The translations under genes and the position numbers were made by a program. Below are positions 5,957-42,859 of a stretch of 44,053 nt of DNA, piece after piece (the stretch's first letter is position 1; every line of letters begins with the position of its first letter). The stretch covers positions 1-44,053 of the forward strand of contig CAMDOT010000022.1 of assembly GCA_945903635.1 (NCBI GenBank). The letters run 5' to 3'. The stretch is from Rhizobium sp. Q54 (GTDB lineage Bacteria > Pseudomonadota > Alphaproteobacteria > Reyranellales > Reyranellaceae). Under the pieces are notes generated by a model. The model was not told the origin of the DNA. It ran no database searches and saw only the letters and a list, made by a program, of their open reading frames with translations.

Positions 5957-7735
5957 ATGGAACTGAAGGCACGGCGACGGCTCGAGGCGGCGGCACTTGG
6001 CGTCGTGCTGCTGCTCGCCGCTGTCCTGCGGCTGTGGCGCCTGGAAGACAACGGCTTCGGCACCGAGTATTACGCCGCCGGCGTTCGCAGCATGCTGCAG
6101 GGCGGCTGGCTTTTCTTCTACAACGCCTTCGACCCGGCGGGTTTCGTCTCCCTCGACAAACCACCGCTCGCCTTCTGGATCCAGACGCTCTTCGCCGCGG
6201 TCCTGGGTTTCAGCGGCTGGACGATCCACCTGCCGCAAGCACTGGCCGGCGTCGCTTCGGTCGCGATCCTGTATCGCCTAGTGCGCCGCCCGTTCGGCGC
6301 GGCGGCGGGCGTGATCGCGGCCCTTCTGTTGGCGACAGCGCCGATCGCCGTCGCGATCGACCGCTCCAACAACACCGACTCATGGCTCGTCCTGTTGCTG
6401 CTGCTGGCAGCCGGCATGGCCCAGCGCGGGCGCGGCCTTTCCTTCGTCCTGGCGATGGTCCTGCTCGGTCTCGCCTTCAACGTGAAGATGCTGGCGGCTC
6501 TCGTATGCGGACCCGCCCTCGTCGCCGTCTATCTCACCGTCGCCCCGTTCGACTGGCGCCGGCATCTGTTCTGGCTCGCCTGCGGCGGCGCGGCGCTCGT
6601 GGTCGTCGGCCTCTCCTGGGTCACCGCCTTCGACCTCACGCCCAAGGACCGCCGGCCCTACGCCGGCAGCAGCATCGGCAACTCCATGTTCGAGCTGGTC
6701 GTGATGCACAACGGTTGGGAACGCTTCGTGAGGCCCCAGCCCACGATCCCGGTGCCGGTGCCGACGCCGACGCAAGTGCCACGCTACGAGGCCTACGACG
6801 CCGTACCGGCAGGCCCGTTCAGGCTCGCCGAGCCGATGTTCGCGGGTCAATTCGCCTGGGCGCTACCGCTCGCCGTCCTCGGCGCGGTGTTGGCATGGCG
6901 GCGGCGGCGCGCCGCCGTGGTGCTGTGGGGCACCTGGGCCCTCACCTACGGCATCGTCTACAGCGCCGCCGGCGGCATCTTTCACATCTACTACCTCGCC
7001 ACCCTGGCGCCGCCGCTGGCCGCCCTCGGCGCCATCGGCTGCATCGAGTTGTGGCGCCACGGCTCCCGCCATCTGGCCTTGGGGCTTGCGGCCACGGCGC
7101 TCTGGCAAGGCTATATCGTGGAACTGTCGCTCGGCTGGACCACCCTCTGGATTGCCTTTCCCGTCGCTGCACTGCTGGTGGGTGCCGCCGTCCTGTGGCG
7201 TGACAAGCGACCGCCTGCCTTCATCGGCGGCATCGCCCTGCTGGTGCTGCCCGCCGCGTGGGCGATGAGTGCCGTCTTCGCGCCGGGCAATCTCATCCTG
7301 CCGTCCGCCAGCCTGCCGCGTTGGCTGGGCCTCGACGACGGCCGTGGCCCGCTGCTGTCGCGTTCCTACCAGCCGCTGACGGGAGATCCCAAGCTGCTGG
7401 CCTACCTGCAGGCCAATCGCGGCAAGGCGCGCTTCGTGGTTGCGGCGCCCAACGCCCTGCTGGCGGCACCCGTGATCGTCCGGACCGGCGAGCCGGCGAT
7501 GGCCTTCGGCGGCTTCATGGGCAGCGATCCGATCATGAACGTCGAGGACTTTGCCGAGCAGGTCGCAAACGGCGACGTGCGCTTCGTCATTCTCGGCACG
7601 GCACGCCGGTCGTCCGACTTCCAGACCTGGGTCCGCGCCCACGGCGTGCCGGTCGATCCGGCGCTGTGGCGCTCGCTGCCGCCCGAGCGCCGGCGCGCGA
7701 TCGAGCTCTACGACCTGATGCCGCCGCCACGTTAG
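5957..7735 (+). CDS. ArnT/PMT-like glycosyltransferase, GT39 family
   Basis: A 592-aa polytopic protein. The first periplasmic loop has GTEYYAAGVRSM and SLDKPPLAFWIQ, the acidic and DKPP motifs of protein-mannosyltransferase/ArnT-like GT-C enzymes. A DRSNNTDSWLVLLLLL segment follows, typical of the bacterial DxNN subgroup. About eleven or twelve membrane helices occupy the first 420 residues; the last 130 form a soluble periplasmic domain. GT-C enzymes transfer a sugar from a polyprenyl-phosphate donor to a lipid, glycan or protein outside the membrane; acceptor and donor are not visible here. The start ATG follows AGGGGAG at a slightly long spacing. It converges on feoB. Confidence 0.85.
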   Translation: MELKARRRLEAAALGVVLLLAAVLRLWRLEDNGFGTEYYAAGVRSMLQGGWLFFYNAFDPAGFVSLDKPPLAFWIQTLFAAVLGFSGWTIHLPQALAGVASVAILYRLVRRPFGAAAGVIAALLLATAPIAVAIDRSNNTDSWLVLLLLLAAGMAQRGRGLSFVLAMVLLGLAFNVKMLAALVCGPALVAVYLTVAPFDWRRHLFWLACGGAALVVVGLSWVTAFDLTPKDRRPYAGSSIGNSMFELVVMHNGWERFVRPQPTIPVPVPTPTQVPRYEAYDAVPAGPFRLAEPMFAGQFAWALPLAVLGAVLAWRRRRAAVVLWGTWALTYGIVYSAAGGIFHIYYLATLAPPLAALGAIGCIELWRHGSRHLALGLAATALWQGYIVELSLGWTTLWIAFPVAALLVGAAVLWRDKRPPAFIGGIALLVLPAAWAMSAVFAPGNLILPSASLPRWLGLDDGRGPLLSRSYQPLTGDPKLLAYLQANRGKARFVVAAPNALLAAPVIVRTGEPAMAFGGFMGSDPIMNVEDFAEQVANGDVRFVILGTARRSSDFQTWVRAHGVPVDPALWRSLPPERRRAIELYDLMPPPR

Positions 7736-7775: not shown

Positions 7776-9032
7776 CTATCCCGCACCCAAGGCGCGGGCG
7801 ATCTGATAGGTGGCGAGCGCGGCCACATAGGCCAGCGCCAGCATGTAGAAGAAGGTGACCCACATCCATTTCCAGCTGCCGGTCTCGCGCCGGATGACGG
7901 CCAGGGTCGAGGCGCATTGCGGCGCGAAGACGTACCAGGCGAGCAGCGCCAGAGCCGTGCCGAGGCTCCATTGGCCGGCGATCGCCTGGCCGATTTTGTC
8001 GGCAGCCTCCTCGCCGCCGCTGATGGCGTAGATGGTGCCGAGCGAGCCGACCGCGACCTCGCGCGCCGCCATGCCGGGGATCAGCGCGACGTTGATCTGC
8101 CAGTTGAAGCCGAGCGGCTCGGTCAGCGGCTGGATCGCCGAGCCGATCATGGCGGCCAGGCTGTAACTGATGGCAGGTTCCGTGGCGCCTTCCGGCGGCT
8201 GCGGGAATGTCGCCAGAAGCCAGATCAACACCATCATGGCGAGGATAATGGTGCCGGCGCGCTTGACGAAAATTGCCGCGCGCGTCCACAGCCCGATGGC
8301 GAGGCTCTTCAACTGCGGGATCTTGTAGTCCGGCAACTCGAGCATGAAGGGCTCGCCCGGCGATCCGCGCCAGATCAGGCGCTTGATCACGAACGACACG
8401 CCGAGCGCGCCCGCGATGCCCGTTGCGTAGAGGCCGAACATCACCAGGCCCTGGAGGCCCACGAAACCCCAGACCTCACGGTCGGGGATGAAGGCGCCGA
8501 TGATCAGGGTGTAGACCGGGATGCGCGCCGAGCAGGTCATCAGCGGCGCCACCAAGATGGTGGTGAGGCGGTCGCGCTTATCGTCGATCACGCGCGTCGC
8601 CATGATTCCCGGAATGGCGCAGGCGAAGGACGACAGCAGCGGGATGAAGGCGCGTCCATGCAGGCCGGCGCCACCCATGATGCGGTCCATCAGGAACGCC
8701 GCGCGCGCCATGTAGCCCAGGTCCTCGAGCACCAGGATGAAGAAGAACAGGATCACGATCTGCGGCAGGAACACCAGCACGCTGCCGACACCGCCGATCA
8801 GCCCGTCCTTGAGGAAGCTCTTGAGCAGGTCGGGCAGCGGCAGCGTCTCGACGAGATCGCCCAGCCAGTGGAAGCCCGCCTCGATCGCGTCCATGCCCGG
8901 CTGCGCCCAGGCGAACACCGCCTGGAACATGACGAACAGGATGGCGAGCAGAATGACGAGCCCGGCCACGGGATGCAGCAGCACGGCATCCGCCCGCGAC
9001 GTGCCGACATCGCGCGCGCCGCTGCGGCGCAC
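7776..9032 (-). CDS. feoB: FeoB C-terminal permease half (separated from the GTPase by an in-frame stop)
   Basis: This is the membrane part of the ferrous-iron transporter FeoB. It has LLHPVAGLVILLAILF as the first helix, the Gate motifs LVFLPQIVILFFFILVLED and SFACAIPGIMATR (CxIPG), a second half with MTCSARIPVY and a C-terminal FAPQCASTLAVI. It lies in exactly the same frame as the GTPase half upstream. Only a TAA at 9078-9080 separates them, and the 45 bases after that TAA would be coding in an intact gene. The first in-frame start after the stop is a GTG at 9032 without a convincing ribosome site. The two halves and the linker total about 620 residues, the usual length of a complete alphaproteobacterial FeoB. 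It is either a real split, a recent nonsense mutation or a sequencing error. Confidence 0.85.
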   Translation of the reverse strand: MRRSGARDVGTSRADAVLLHPVAGLVILLAILFVMFQAVFAWAQPGMDAIEAGFHWLGDLVETLPLPDLLKSFLKDGLIGGVGSVLVFLPQIVILFFFILVLEDLGYMARAAFLMDRIMGGAGLHGRAFIPLLSSFACAIPGIMATRVIDDKRDRLTTILVAPLMTCSARIPVYTLIIGAFIPDREVWGFVGLQGLVMFGLYATGIAGALGVSFVIKRLIWRGSPGEPFMLELPDYKIPQLKSLAIGLWTRAAIFVKRAGTIILAMMVLIWLLATFPQPPEGATEPAISYSLAAMIGSAIQPLTEPLGFNWQINVALIPGMAAREVAVGSLGTIYAISGGEEAADKIGQAIAGQWSLGTALALLAWYVFAPQCASTLAVIRRETGSWKWMWVTFFYMLALAYVAALATYQIARALGAG

Positions 9033-9077
9033 GACGGTGCGCTGCAGCCGGTCGGCCTCGTGTTGGCCGCCGCGCAG

Positions 9078-9644
9078 TTAGCCGGCATCGGGGGCATGCC
9101 ACGAGGAGGTGCCGGCCTCCGGCAGGTTGGCGACGGCGCTATCGATCTCGGCCAGCAAGGCGTCGATGCCGCCGCGGCGCACCGCGACCGAACTCACCAC
9201 AGGTACGCCGAGCTCGCGCGCGAGACGGTCGGCGTCGATCTCGATGCCGCGCTTGCGCGCAATGTCCATCATGTTGAGCGACAGCATCACCGGACGGCCG
9301 ACACGCTTCAGCTCCAGCGCGAGGCGGAGCGCCAGGCGCAGGTTGGTGGCGTCGGCGACGCAGACGATCAGGTCGGGGGCGGCTTCGCCCTTGAGGCGCC
9401 CGAGCACGACATCGCGCGTGACCTCCTCGTCGGGCGAACGCGCGCGCAGCGAATAGGTGCCGGGCAGGTCGACGATCTGCAGTGTACGGCCGGCCGGCGT
9501 GGTGAGGCGGCCGGTCTTCTTCTCGACCGTGACGCCGGGATAGTTGGCGACCTTCTGGCGGCTGCCGGTGAGGGCGTTGAACAACGCCGTCTTGCCGCAG
9601 TTGGGATTGCCGACCAGTGCAATTGTCGGTGTGGCGGCACTCAT
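9078..9644 (-). CDS. feoB: FeoB N-terminal GTPase half (truncated by TAA)
   Basis: A 188-aa G domain. The P-loop GNPNCGKT is at residues 12-19, the G2 region VANYPGVTVEKK near 32-43, G3 DLPG at 59-62 and G4 NMMD at 124-127. FeoB uses this domain to gate Fe2+ uptake across the inner membrane. The frame ends at TAA where relatives usually continue with a Glu-Leu-Arg linker. The residues after the stop read LRGGQHEADRLQ, so GAA to TAA would explain it. The ATG overlaps the feoA stop by four bases (ATGA), confirming an operon. Alone, this half lacks the membrane pore. Confidence 0.88.
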   Translation of the reverse strand: MSAATPTIALVGNPNCGKTALFNALTGSRQKVANYPGVTVEKKTGRLTTPAGRTLQIVDLPGTYSLRARSPDEEVTRDVVLGRLKGEAAPDLIVCVADATNLRLALRLALELKRVGRPVMLSLNMMDIARKRGIEIDADRLARELGVPVVSSVAVRRGGIDALLAEIDSAVANLPEAGTSSWHAPDAG

Positions 9645-9919
9645 GACGGGACCTCGGTGCTCACCAGGATCGCCATGGCCTCGCGCCGGCGCAGCGCGAT
9701 AGTGGCATGCGCCACCCGAACCGCGATCGGATCGCTGCCGAACAGGCCCTGATGAAGAAGCTCGACATCGGCGCCTTCGACGAAGCCCAGTTCGATCAGC
9801 CGGCGCTCCAGCTCAGGTCCCGGCAAGCCGATCCCGGCACCCTCCACGGAGAGCGCCTCGATGCGACCACGAAAGCCCACACGCGCATTACCTAGTGCTA
9901 TGGTTGGTTTGTCAGACAT
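9641..9919 (-). CDS. feoA: FeoA, ferrous iron transport accessory protein
   Basis: A 92-aa SH3-like FeoA. The motif ERRLIELGFVEGADVELLHQ followed by DPIAVRVAHATIALRRREA is diagnostic: a bend of LxxLGF, then the A-x-R-x-x-x-A end in which the basic RRREA segment closes the barrel. FeoA is a small cytosolic partner of FeoB. No Shine-Dalgarno is seen upstream of the ATG; the leader is AT-rich and contains an imperfect dyad, so it may be translated from a very short leader. It is the first gene of the feoAB operon and diverges from an alpha/beta hydrolase. Confidence 0.9.
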   Translation of the reverse strand: MSDKPTIALGNARVGFRGRIEALSVEGAGIGLPGPELERRLIELGFVEGADVELLHQGLFGSDPIAVRVAHATIALRRREAMAILVSTEVPS

Positions 9920-9977: not shown

Positions 9978-10703
9978 ATGGCATCGATCGTTCTGGCGCA
10001 TGGCGCCTGGTCCGCGGCCTGGGCCTGGAAAAAAATGCGCCCCCGCTTCAGGGCCGCCGGTCACGAGTTCTTCTCGCCGACCTACACCGGGCTCGGCGAG
10101 CGCGCCCATCTCGCCCGCCCCGAGATCGATCTCGCGACCCATATCCAGGACGTGCTGGCGGTGCTGGAGTTCGAGGACCTGACCGACGTCACCCTGCTCG
10201 GCCATTCCTACGGCGGCATGGTCGCGACCGGTGTCGCCGACAAGGCGCGCGAGCGCATTGCACGCGTGGTCTATATCGACGCCTTCGCGCCCAAGGATGG
10301 CCAAAGCCTGTTCGACCTGGTGGGTCCCAAGGCCGAAGGCAACATGCGCGCCGGCGCCGCCAAGGACGGCGACGGCTGGCGGCTGCCCATCAATCCGATG
10401 CCGCCCGACACCGCGCCCGAGGATGTGGCGTGGGCCAGTCCGCGCCGCCGGCCGCAGCCGATCCGGACCTTCGAGCAGAAGATCCAGCTCACTTCGAAGG
10501 AACCGCCGCCGCCGCGTCACTATATCTATGCGACGCGCAACGGCCCGGGCGATGTGTTCCGCCAGTTCAGTGAGCGCGCCAAGAGCGAGGCGGGCTGGAA
10601 GTCCTACGAACTCGATTCCAGTCACAACCCCCACATCACCTGTCCCGATGCGCTGATGGCGTTGCTGACCCGGATCATGCCGAACACGTGGGCTGACAAA
10701 TGA
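9978..10703 (+). CDS. Alpha/beta hydrolase (esterase-like)
   Basis: A 241-aa alpha/beta hydrolase. The start IVLAHGAWSAAWAWKK holds the oxyanion HGA and the family's typical SAAWAW. The nucleophile elbow is GHSYGG, with Ser near residue 77. The acid Asp is in VVYIDAFAP and the His is the one in SSHNPHIT near the end. This is the EstC/salicylate-esterase/pyrethroid-hydrolase subgroup of small lidless esterases. The ATG has a strong GGGAGGTAGAGGG ribosome site. It is followed after 10 bases by a CoA-transferase gene, so the two are probably cotranscribed. The natural ester is unknown. Confidence 0.9.
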   Translation: MASIVLAHGAWSAAWAWKKMRPRFRAAGHEFFSPTYTGLGERAHLARPEIDLATHIQDVLAVLEFEDLTDVTLLGHSYGGMVATGVADKARERIARVVYIDAFAPKDGQSLFDLVGPKAEGNMRAGAAKDGDGWRLPINPMPPDTAPEDVAWASPRRRPQPIRTFEQKIQLTSKEPPPPRHYIYATRNGPGDVFRQFSERAKSEAGWKSYELDSSHNPHITCPDALMALLTRIMPNTWADK

Positions 10704-12136: not shown

Positions 12137-12364
12137 ATGCCTACCTACACGATCCATGCCGCCAAGACGAACCTCTCCAAGCTCGTCGCTCGCGCCGAGG
12201 CGGGTGAGGAGATCGTGCTCGCACGTGGCAAGGAGCCCGTTGTGAAAATCGTGCCGGTCGCGCCGAAGCCCAAGCGCAAGTTCGGCCGCTTGAAGGGCAA
12301 GGGCTCGGTCGGTCCGGCGTTCTTCGAGCCACTGCCCGAGGACGAACTCAAGCTCTGGGAATGA
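12137..12364 (+). CDS. Type II antitoxin, Phd/YefM family
   Basis: A 75-aa antitoxin. The beginning TYTIHAAKTNLSKLVARAEAGEEIVLARGKEPVVKIVP is the conserved Phd/YefM N-terminal DNA-binding fold (prevent-host-death). The acidic tail FFEPLPEDELKLWE is the toxin-blocking segment seen in antitoxins paired with PIN toxins. It lies three bases before the PIN gene and directly behind a twin palindromic operator. It is AT-richer at its upstream edge than its neighbours, which is common for acquired TA loci. Confidence 0.93.
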   Translation: MPTYTIHAAKTNLSKLVARAEAGEEIVLARGKEPVVKIVPVAPKPKRKFGRLKGKGSVGPAFFEPLPEDELKLWE

Positions 12365-12367
12365 CGC

Positions 12368-12757
12368 GTGCGGCTTCTCCTTGATACACACGCATTCCTC
12401 TGGTGGGTGTTTGCCGACCCCAAACTCTCCCGCCGTGCCCGCATCGCGATCGACAATGACAGTGAGAACGAAGTTTTCGTAAGTGCCGCCTCCGCCTGGG
12501 AAATCGCCACCAAACACAGGATTGGCAAATTGCCCGATGCGCGTGTCGTTGCAGATGACATCCCCGCCACGGTCGCCGCCGAAGGATTCGCCGAACTCAG
12601 CATTTCAGTTCGCCATGCCCAACATGCCGGCAATCTGGGCGGACGCCACAAAGATCCATTCGATCGAATGCTGATCGCTCAAGCCATGCTCGAAGATCTG
12701 ACACTCGTGTCGAACGAGCGGACCTTCGACGCCTATGGCGTTAAGCGACTGTGGTAA
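12368..12757 (+). CDS. Type II toxin, PIN-domain ribonuclease (VapC-like)
   Basis: A 129-aa PIN-domain protein starting with GTG. The acidic metal site can be traced as Asp6 (LLLDTHAFLW), Glu45 (ASAWEIATKHRIGK) and Asp96/Asp99 (HKDPFDRMLIAQA). The WEIATK...GKL stretch marks the subgroup that pairs with Phd-type antitoxins. Such toxins cleave RNA (tRNA or rRNA sites) when the antitoxin is lost. The gene looks intact. Its stop is immediately followed by the stop of the convergent DUF6429 gene. Confidence 0.93.
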   Translation: MRLLLDTHAFLWWVFADPKLSRRARIAIDNDSENEVFVSAASAWEIATKHRIGKLPDARVVADDIPATVAAEGFAELSISVRHAQHAGNLGGRHKDPFDRMLIAQAMLEDLTLVSNERTFDAYGVKRLW

Positions 12758-41456: not shown

Positions 41457-41650
41457 CGCGCAGGCACTCCTTGTTCTTCGGGAGGGCGAGGATTGGACCT
41501 TCGCCAAGGGCAAAGAAGACCAGCGCCCAGGCGGGGTGGCAAGGTTGAGGCAGGGCTGGACCGCCCCCCCTTTCGCTGACTGGAACCAACTCCCGCGACG
41601 GCAGCCGCCGTGATAGACTTGCCGAAAAGAAGTTCAACAGGGAGGAAACG

Positions 41651-42859
41651 ATGCGATACATGAAGGTTGTTGCGACAGCGTTGCTATCCTGCTGCCTGCT
41701 CAGCGCCACGGCGCTGGCCCAGAACAAGGCCGTGAAGATCGGCGTTCTGGACGACATGTCCGGCCTCTACGCCGACAACACCGGCCCGGGCGACGTCGCC
41801 TCGGTCAAGTTCGCCATCGCCGATTTCGGCGGGTCGGTGCTCGGCAAGCCAATCGAGCTGGTGACCTCCGATTTCCAGAACAAGGTCGATGTCGGCGCCG
41901 GCATCGCCAAGCGCTGGTACGACGAAGAGAACGTCGACATGATCCTCGGCATTCCCAATTCGGCGCTGGCGCTCGCGCTCGTGAGGGTGGCGGAGGAAAA
42001 GAACCGCATCGTCATGCCGACCGCGGCGGCGACCTCGGAGCTGACCGGCAAATCCTGCAGCTCGCACAGCGTCCACTGGATCTACGACACCTACGGCCAG
42101 GGCAAGACCATCGTCAATGCGCTGAGCAAGATGGGCGGCGATACCTGGTTCTTCATCACCGTGGACTACGCCTTCGGCCTGGCGGTGGAAGCGGATGCCA
42201 CCACTTTCATCAAGGCGGCCGGTGGCAAGGTGCTCGGTTCGGTGCGCCATCCGCTGAACACGGCGGACTTCTCCTCCTATGTCCTGCAGGCACAGGCCTC
42301 CAAGGCCAAGGGGCTGATGTTCGCCAACGGCGGCGGTGACATCGTGAACGGCATCAAGCAGGCGTCCGAGTTCGGCCTCATGAAGCAGGGGGTGCGGATC
42401 AGCGCACCGCTGGCGCAGTTCCCTGACATCCACGGCATCGGGCTGAAGATCGCCCAGGGCACGTTGATCTCGAGTCCGTTCTACTACGACATGACTCCGG
42501 AGGCGCGCACCTTCACCGACCGCTTCACCAAGGAGCGGGGCCGTCCGCCCAGCTTCATCCAGGCCGGCACCTACGGCGCGGTCATGCACTACCTGAAGGC
42601 CGTGCAGGCCGCCGGCACCGACGAGGCCAAGGCCGTGATGGCCCAGATGAAGAAGCTGCCGATCAACGACTTCATGACCAAGAACGGCCGCGTTCGAGAG
42701 GACGGGCGCGTCATCCGCGATATGTACCTGATGCAGGCCAAGACACCCGAGGAGTCGAAGGGCGGATGGGATCTGGTGAAAATGGTCGCCACGGTGCCGG
42801 GCAACGAGGCCTTCCGGCCGCTGAACGAAGGCGGCTGCCCGCTGGTGACGAAGAACTAG
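41651..42859 (+). CDS. Branched-chain amino-acid ABC transporter-type binding protein (LivJ-like)
   Basis: A 402-aa periplasmic protein. A Sec signal (VVATALLSCCLLSATALAQ, cleaved near residue 24) leads into KIGVLDDMSGLYADNTGPGD, the type I PBP start for the HAAT family. FQNKVDVGAGIAKRWYDEENVDMILG and TYGAVMHYLKAVQAAGTDEAKA are the second-lobe marks. Many relatives bind aromatic acids or other carboxylates and not leucine. No permease or ATPase adjoins it. A GGGAGGA ribosome site is strong. A GC-rich hairpin follows the stop. Confidence 0.92.
   Translation: MRYMKVVATALLSCCLLSATALAQNKAVKIGVLDDMSGLYADNTGPGDVASVKFAIADFGGSVLGKPIELVTSDFQNKVDVGAGIAKRWYDEENVDMILGIPNSALALALVRVAEEKNRIVMPTAAATSELTGKSCSSHSVHWIYDTYGQGKTIVNALSKMGGDTWFFITVDYAFGLAVEADATTFIKAAGGKVLGSVRHPLNTADFSSYVLQAQASKAKGLMFANGGGDIVNGIKQASEFGLMKQGVRISAPLAQFPDIHGIGLKIAQGTLISSPFYYDMTPEARTFTDRFTKERGRPPSFIQAGTYGAVMHYLKAVQAAGTDEAKAVMAQMKKLPINDFMTKNGRVREDGRVIRDMYLMQAKTPEESKGGWDLVKMVATVPGNEAFRPLNEGGCPLVTKN

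Follow-up and report, generated by a model that had tools for sequence, protein, structure and literature searches.

A single in-frame stop between the two halves of FeoB

The feoB gene described here is most probably a recent nonsense allele with loss of function, and its state resembles the ordinary decay of a gene rather than a new two-part transporter. The gene lies on contig C22, which belongs to a 6.38-Mb draft genome (384 contigs, 91.1% complete, 3.29% contamination); this contig is the whole stretch of 44,053 nucleotides that we have analysed and call the window. Among named relatives, the closest for feoB was L010, a Reyranella assembly from a metagenome with 91% identity, and the named relatives would place the source bacterium as Reyranella-like.

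On the minus strand of the window, one shared reading frame opens with an ATG at 9644, is interrupted by a TAA at 9078-9080 and continues to the next stop at 7776-7778. Apart from the TAA, which is codon 189 of 623, feoB (9644-7776) reads as a single FeoB of 622 residues, with 188 codons before the interruption and 433 after it. An initial annotation of the same DNA had reported exactly this arrangement, a lone TAA separating an intact GTPase from an intact permease in the same frame, and our results agreed with it. The 5′ half (9081-9644, minus strand) starts at the ATG and encodes a G domain of 188 aa, which matched Pfam FeoB_N (2.5e-56) and, over residues 7-173, solved FeoB G-domain structures. 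The half after the TAA matched Gate (2.4e-40) and FeoB_C (5.2e-16), the membrane permease. Its first in-frame ATG, GTG or TTG is a GTG (9030-9032), the 16th codon past the stop, from which the permease would measure 418 aa (7776-9032, minus strand). The bases between the two (9033-9077, codons 190-204) had been annotated as still reading as a FeoB linker, and this held, with seven residues (L, R, Q, E, A, D, R) being invariant in 120/120 homologues. The same codons fall in a helix (residues 187-204) predicted in the model of an intact relative (P0122, mean pLDDT 76.9).

The two halves covered the NCBIfam feoB model TIGR00437 in order (model positions 1-152, then 246-594). Scored singly, the first stayed below the cut-off (185.7 vs. 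315.65 bits) and the second came just above it (318.6 bits). The G domain and the Gate/FeoB_C membrane part of a FeoB are both present, and it is the uninterrupted polypeptide joining them that fails, at codon 189. Compared with the FeoB transporter (FeoB_N, Gate, FeoB_C; TIGR00437), the window copy has the same halves, order, frame, linker and adjoining feoA, and differs by one stop codon in the linker. The feoA gene, commonly but not strictly a companion of FeoB, is uninterrupted (9641-9919, minus strand; Pfam FeoA, 4e-15) and overlaps the feoB start by 4 bases. The pair sits between two plus-strand genes that we have used as synteny markers, a PMT_2/YkcB-like glycosyltransferase on the left (5957-7735) and an alpha/beta hydrolase on the right (9978-10703). 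Further along the window, at 12137-12757, a Phd/YefM-type antitoxin gene precedes one for a PIN-domain protein, and by their Pfam matches the two form a type II toxin-antitoxin pair.

The draft genome (91.1% complete) yielded no second FeoB. The permease half matched only itself, and the next best FeoB_N match reached 54.6 bits, vs. 189.9 bits for the window protein. A weak FeoB_C match is present on contig C82 (855-995; 25.7 bits, below the cut-off of 26.6), and similar weak second FeoB_C-like matches, below or just at the cut-off, occur in three other genomes (G016, G031 and G393), so that the match recurs in several members of the genus.

The stop is private to the window among the relatives compared

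FeoB was searched across 61 genomes, the source genome included. Among the 36 other genomes of the same genus, 27 carried a near-full-length FeoB with no stop and one (G034) only part of the permease, while eight (G006, G007, G009, G017, G018, G019, G020 and G023) gave no FeoB hit better than E = 4.7e-9. We have cut out the FeoB stretches of 33 relatives (these 27 and the named L010-L015; the two sets may contain one genome twice), and none had a stop in the matched part. The stop check among the 80 listed loci covered L010-L015 plus those added to a later alignment. The codon alignment comprised the window and 28 of the 33 relatives (L011-L015 left out), and all 28 had a sense codon at the position of the TAA. 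Comparison of the same site in related genomes, as had been proposed, thus showed the stop to be private to the window among those compared. The suggestion that a one-base change would explain the TAA agrees with the codons of the relatives, which fit a single substitution. The 120 listed protein homologues all extend past the stop position, with six different residues there; being predicted open frames, they are by nature unable to show a stop.

One intact homologue, P0142, matched the window protein at 188/188 residues before the stop and at 40/41 linker residues after it. The two are identical through residue 296, bar two positions, and about 50 differences begin at residue 297. This mosaic pattern suggests a recombination event within the gene.

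Selection after the stop resembles that on intact relatives

The dN/dS ratios were calculated by the Nei-Gojobori method for the window against six of the 28 relatives, and likewise for these six in their 15 pairwise combinations. For the permease, the window comparisons gave 0.10-0.15 and the pairs among the six 0.06-0.15; the G domain gave 0.14-0.26 and 0.12-0.23, respectively. At sites invariant in the other 28 sequences, the window copy has no change before the stop and two after it (L201Q and R356K), and the relatives have from 0 to 4 changes of their own at otherwise invariant sites in the latter region. Relaxed constraint past the stop, as would be looked for in a nonsense pseudogene, was therefore not seen by either measure, and there was no sign of decay beyond the stop itself.

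Because the downstream dN/dS is as low as that between intact relatives, the stop would be young, an error or tolerated. Unrelaxed ratios are equally expected from an error or from a still-working gene, and a young lesion would not show relaxation. Nonsense pseudogenes are a known general kind in bacteria, and the window copy shares with them a single in-frame stop, domains that are otherwise intact and restriction to one compared lineage; it differs in that no second lesion was seen and that its stop may yet be an error.

False stops appear uncommon in the assembly

A codon model was trained on 235 long open frames taken from 844 kb of the 6378-kb genome, which comprised the window plus the opening 40 kb of each of contigs C1-C20. 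In this DNA we have counted the in-frame stops having coding signal in the 50 codons on each side. There were 23 such stops, of which 22 were followed by a start codon 1-11 codons later, like ordinary gene junctions. The feoB TAA was the only one with no start within that distance, its first being the 16th codon. As the sole start-less in-frame stop of the 23, the feoB interruption is more than a chance occurrence.

In a second control, 81 of 194 open frames from the stretches of five relatives matched the window, and 20 were initially flagged for stops. Many flagged frames looked to be in the wrong frame, the genome being GC-rich, so we have kept only the 63 that fall in the window's best coding frame. 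Stops remained in four, three of them being feoB as matched from three relatives. The fourth, at 41546, precedes the gene that starts at 41651. Both controls are blind to frameshifts and to nonsense stops with a chance start close behind. Within that range, false stops seem uncommon in the assembly, and this favours, without proving, a real mutation.

In the protein clusters, the 188-aa product represents a cluster (P0002) with 5 members, for which one contig is listed. Four FeoB entries related to the window protein (P0003, P0005, P0017 and P0019) pass partway into unrelated tails; their contigs measure from 14 kb to 1.7 Mb. These tails may be frameshifts, assembly errors or further decaying copies.

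Competing explanations for the interrupted gene

The initial annotation had left three options: a very recent nonsense mutation, a sequencing error, or a true two-protein FeoB using the GTG at 9032. The first gained from the private stop, the one-substitution codons and the unrelaxed selection downstream, the second is still in play, and the third found little support. That the true gene is intact and the TAA an erroneous base in the draft assembly, either miscalled or due to mixed strains in the bin, is in our view unlikely, yet it is the most serious competitor of a real mutation. A draft in 384 contigs with 3.29% contamination would leave room for it, a private stop and unrelaxed constraint are what it predicts too, and the FeoB entries with non-FeoB tails show up even on long contigs. 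Against it, there was no other start-less in-frame stop among the 23 junctions in 844 kb and no stop inside the other matched genes of the window, and an erroneous stop would a priori rarely strike one given gene.

A gene that still works, through either a split or readthrough, seems very improbable even when both routes are taken together. Such a product could be a just-born two-protein FeoB, in which the GTPase is free and the permease arises from reinitiation at GTG 9032 or through a leaky UAA, both under normal selection, and we give this a still smaller chance. Narrower again is the case for a G domain that ends at the TAA and a permease restarted at GTG 9032, the two parts cooperating. 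Both halves do keep their domains and normal constraint, and the GTG lies only 16 codons downstream of the TAA. In addition, one FeoB permease entry (P0244, 439 aa, 89% identical, on a 7962-base contig) begins in the linker and is thus a second FeoB interrupted close to the site of the break in the window; it may reflect an actual split, a frameshift or merely the way the gene was called. Apart from this one permease-only entry, no split conserved in relatives was seen. However, the sole ribosome-binding word found in the 30 nt upstream of the GTG is a GAGG at 23 nt, out of range. This observation is weak when taken alone, given that the feoB start has a GAGG at 7 nt but the feoA start has no such word either. 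A restart would also omit codons 190-204, which carry the seven invariant residues and lie within the predicted helix. A survey of 385 genomes of the class found 51 with an FeoB_C match, the source genome included, and the only above-cut-off match in an open frame shorter than 550 aa was that of the window (433 aa; the next was 554 aa). The cluster of the 418-aa product contains the window protein alone. Finally, a search for GTPase hits, which admitted short proteins only, listed 120, of which 16 end at residues 178-199 and only that of the window at 188; a recurrent split site was not seen among them.

Least probable of all, we consider, is that readthrough or recoding of the UAA yields some full-length FeoB. 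Low background readthrough exists in bacteria, and both the frame and the constraint continue past the stop. Nevertheless, we found no UUA or CUA anticodon, and hence no suppressor tRNA for UAA, among 39 tRNA hits (the tRNA set of the draft is incomplete), the selenocysteine tRNA that was found reads UGA, and in this genome 36 of the 235 open frames used for training end in TAA. This selenocysteine tRNA (anticodon tca) is encoded at G000:C18:7182-7278, and because of its presence UGA recoding is likely somewhere in the genome.

The literature was consulted for split forms of the protein. The part of PMC8980893 drawn on here describes FeoB as a G domain, a GDI domain and a membrane domain, reports FeoA-FeoB fusion as a variation, and treats rare FeoAB entries with no membrane part as possible sequencing errors. 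The window product resembles these rare truncated entries in having a G domain with no membrane part; it differs from the FeoAB fusions of that source in that FeoA here has a gene of its own and the permease half follows immediately in the same frame. The corresponding part of PMC10353542 deals with the separation of feoA from feoB, not with a split FeoB. We found no recognisable description of a split FeoB in the open-licence literature, which is no proof of absence, and the earlier statement that FeoB occurs as separate domains in some prokaryotes found no backing there. Nothing was found in the same literature on readthrough in assembled genomes.

The preferred explanation is hence a young nonsense mutation that inactivates feoB in the short linker between G domain and permease. 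The ribosome would make a soluble GTPase of 188 residues and then halt, little or no permease would be made, and FeoB transport would be lost in this strain.

Remnants and absence of feo in sister species

The window feoB would stand at an early step of decay, with sister species having probably advanced to feo remnants or to absence of the genes. In G006, the same glycosyltransferase and hydrolase enclose a scar with 47 codons of FeoB linker, 61.7% identical (L120, G006:C80:20000-31595, about 6040-6253). By eye, this piece is preceded in frame by an apparent FeoA start, which the FeoA search did not report. A 19-residue FeoA remnant, 78.9% identical, lies between the same flanks in G020 (L134, 3458-3514, G020:C176). 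Since the two remnants differ, they suggest separate deletions; alternatively, one may show the other at a later stage. The two flanking genes adjoin in G009 and G019, with no feo match between them; of the glycosyltransferase, G009 has only a part and G019 two separate pieces. G018 and G023 carry the hydrolase and the CoA-transferase gene next to it, and no FeoB match was detected within 1.5 kb beside them; the same 1.5 kb in G018 held one weak FeoA-like match (25.7%). Two further genomes with no FeoB hit (G007 and G017) are less than 80% complete and were left out of this assessment.

An Nramp-type metal transporter encoded elsewhere might partly stand in for FeoB. The source genome gave one Nramp match and no match to FTR1, which was dropped as a candidate back-up. 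Of six Feo-less genomes searched, only G018 showed Nramp and only G019 and G020 showed FTR1; neither was seen in G006, G009 and G023. Because half of these sister genomes gave no match to either, the idea of an Nramp back-up is a weak one, and we put it forward as something that might hold.

Implications for FeoB and for the genus

Were a just-born split to be real after all, it would let one ask if the FeoB GTPase must be tethered to the pore. The case also cautions against annotating a FeoB that is split at the linker in a draft genome as a two-component transporter. The single stop seen here, beside the feo remnants of sister species, suggests that feo has been lost more than once in the genus, with stages of loss that would span from one stop codon to a scar some tens of codons long.
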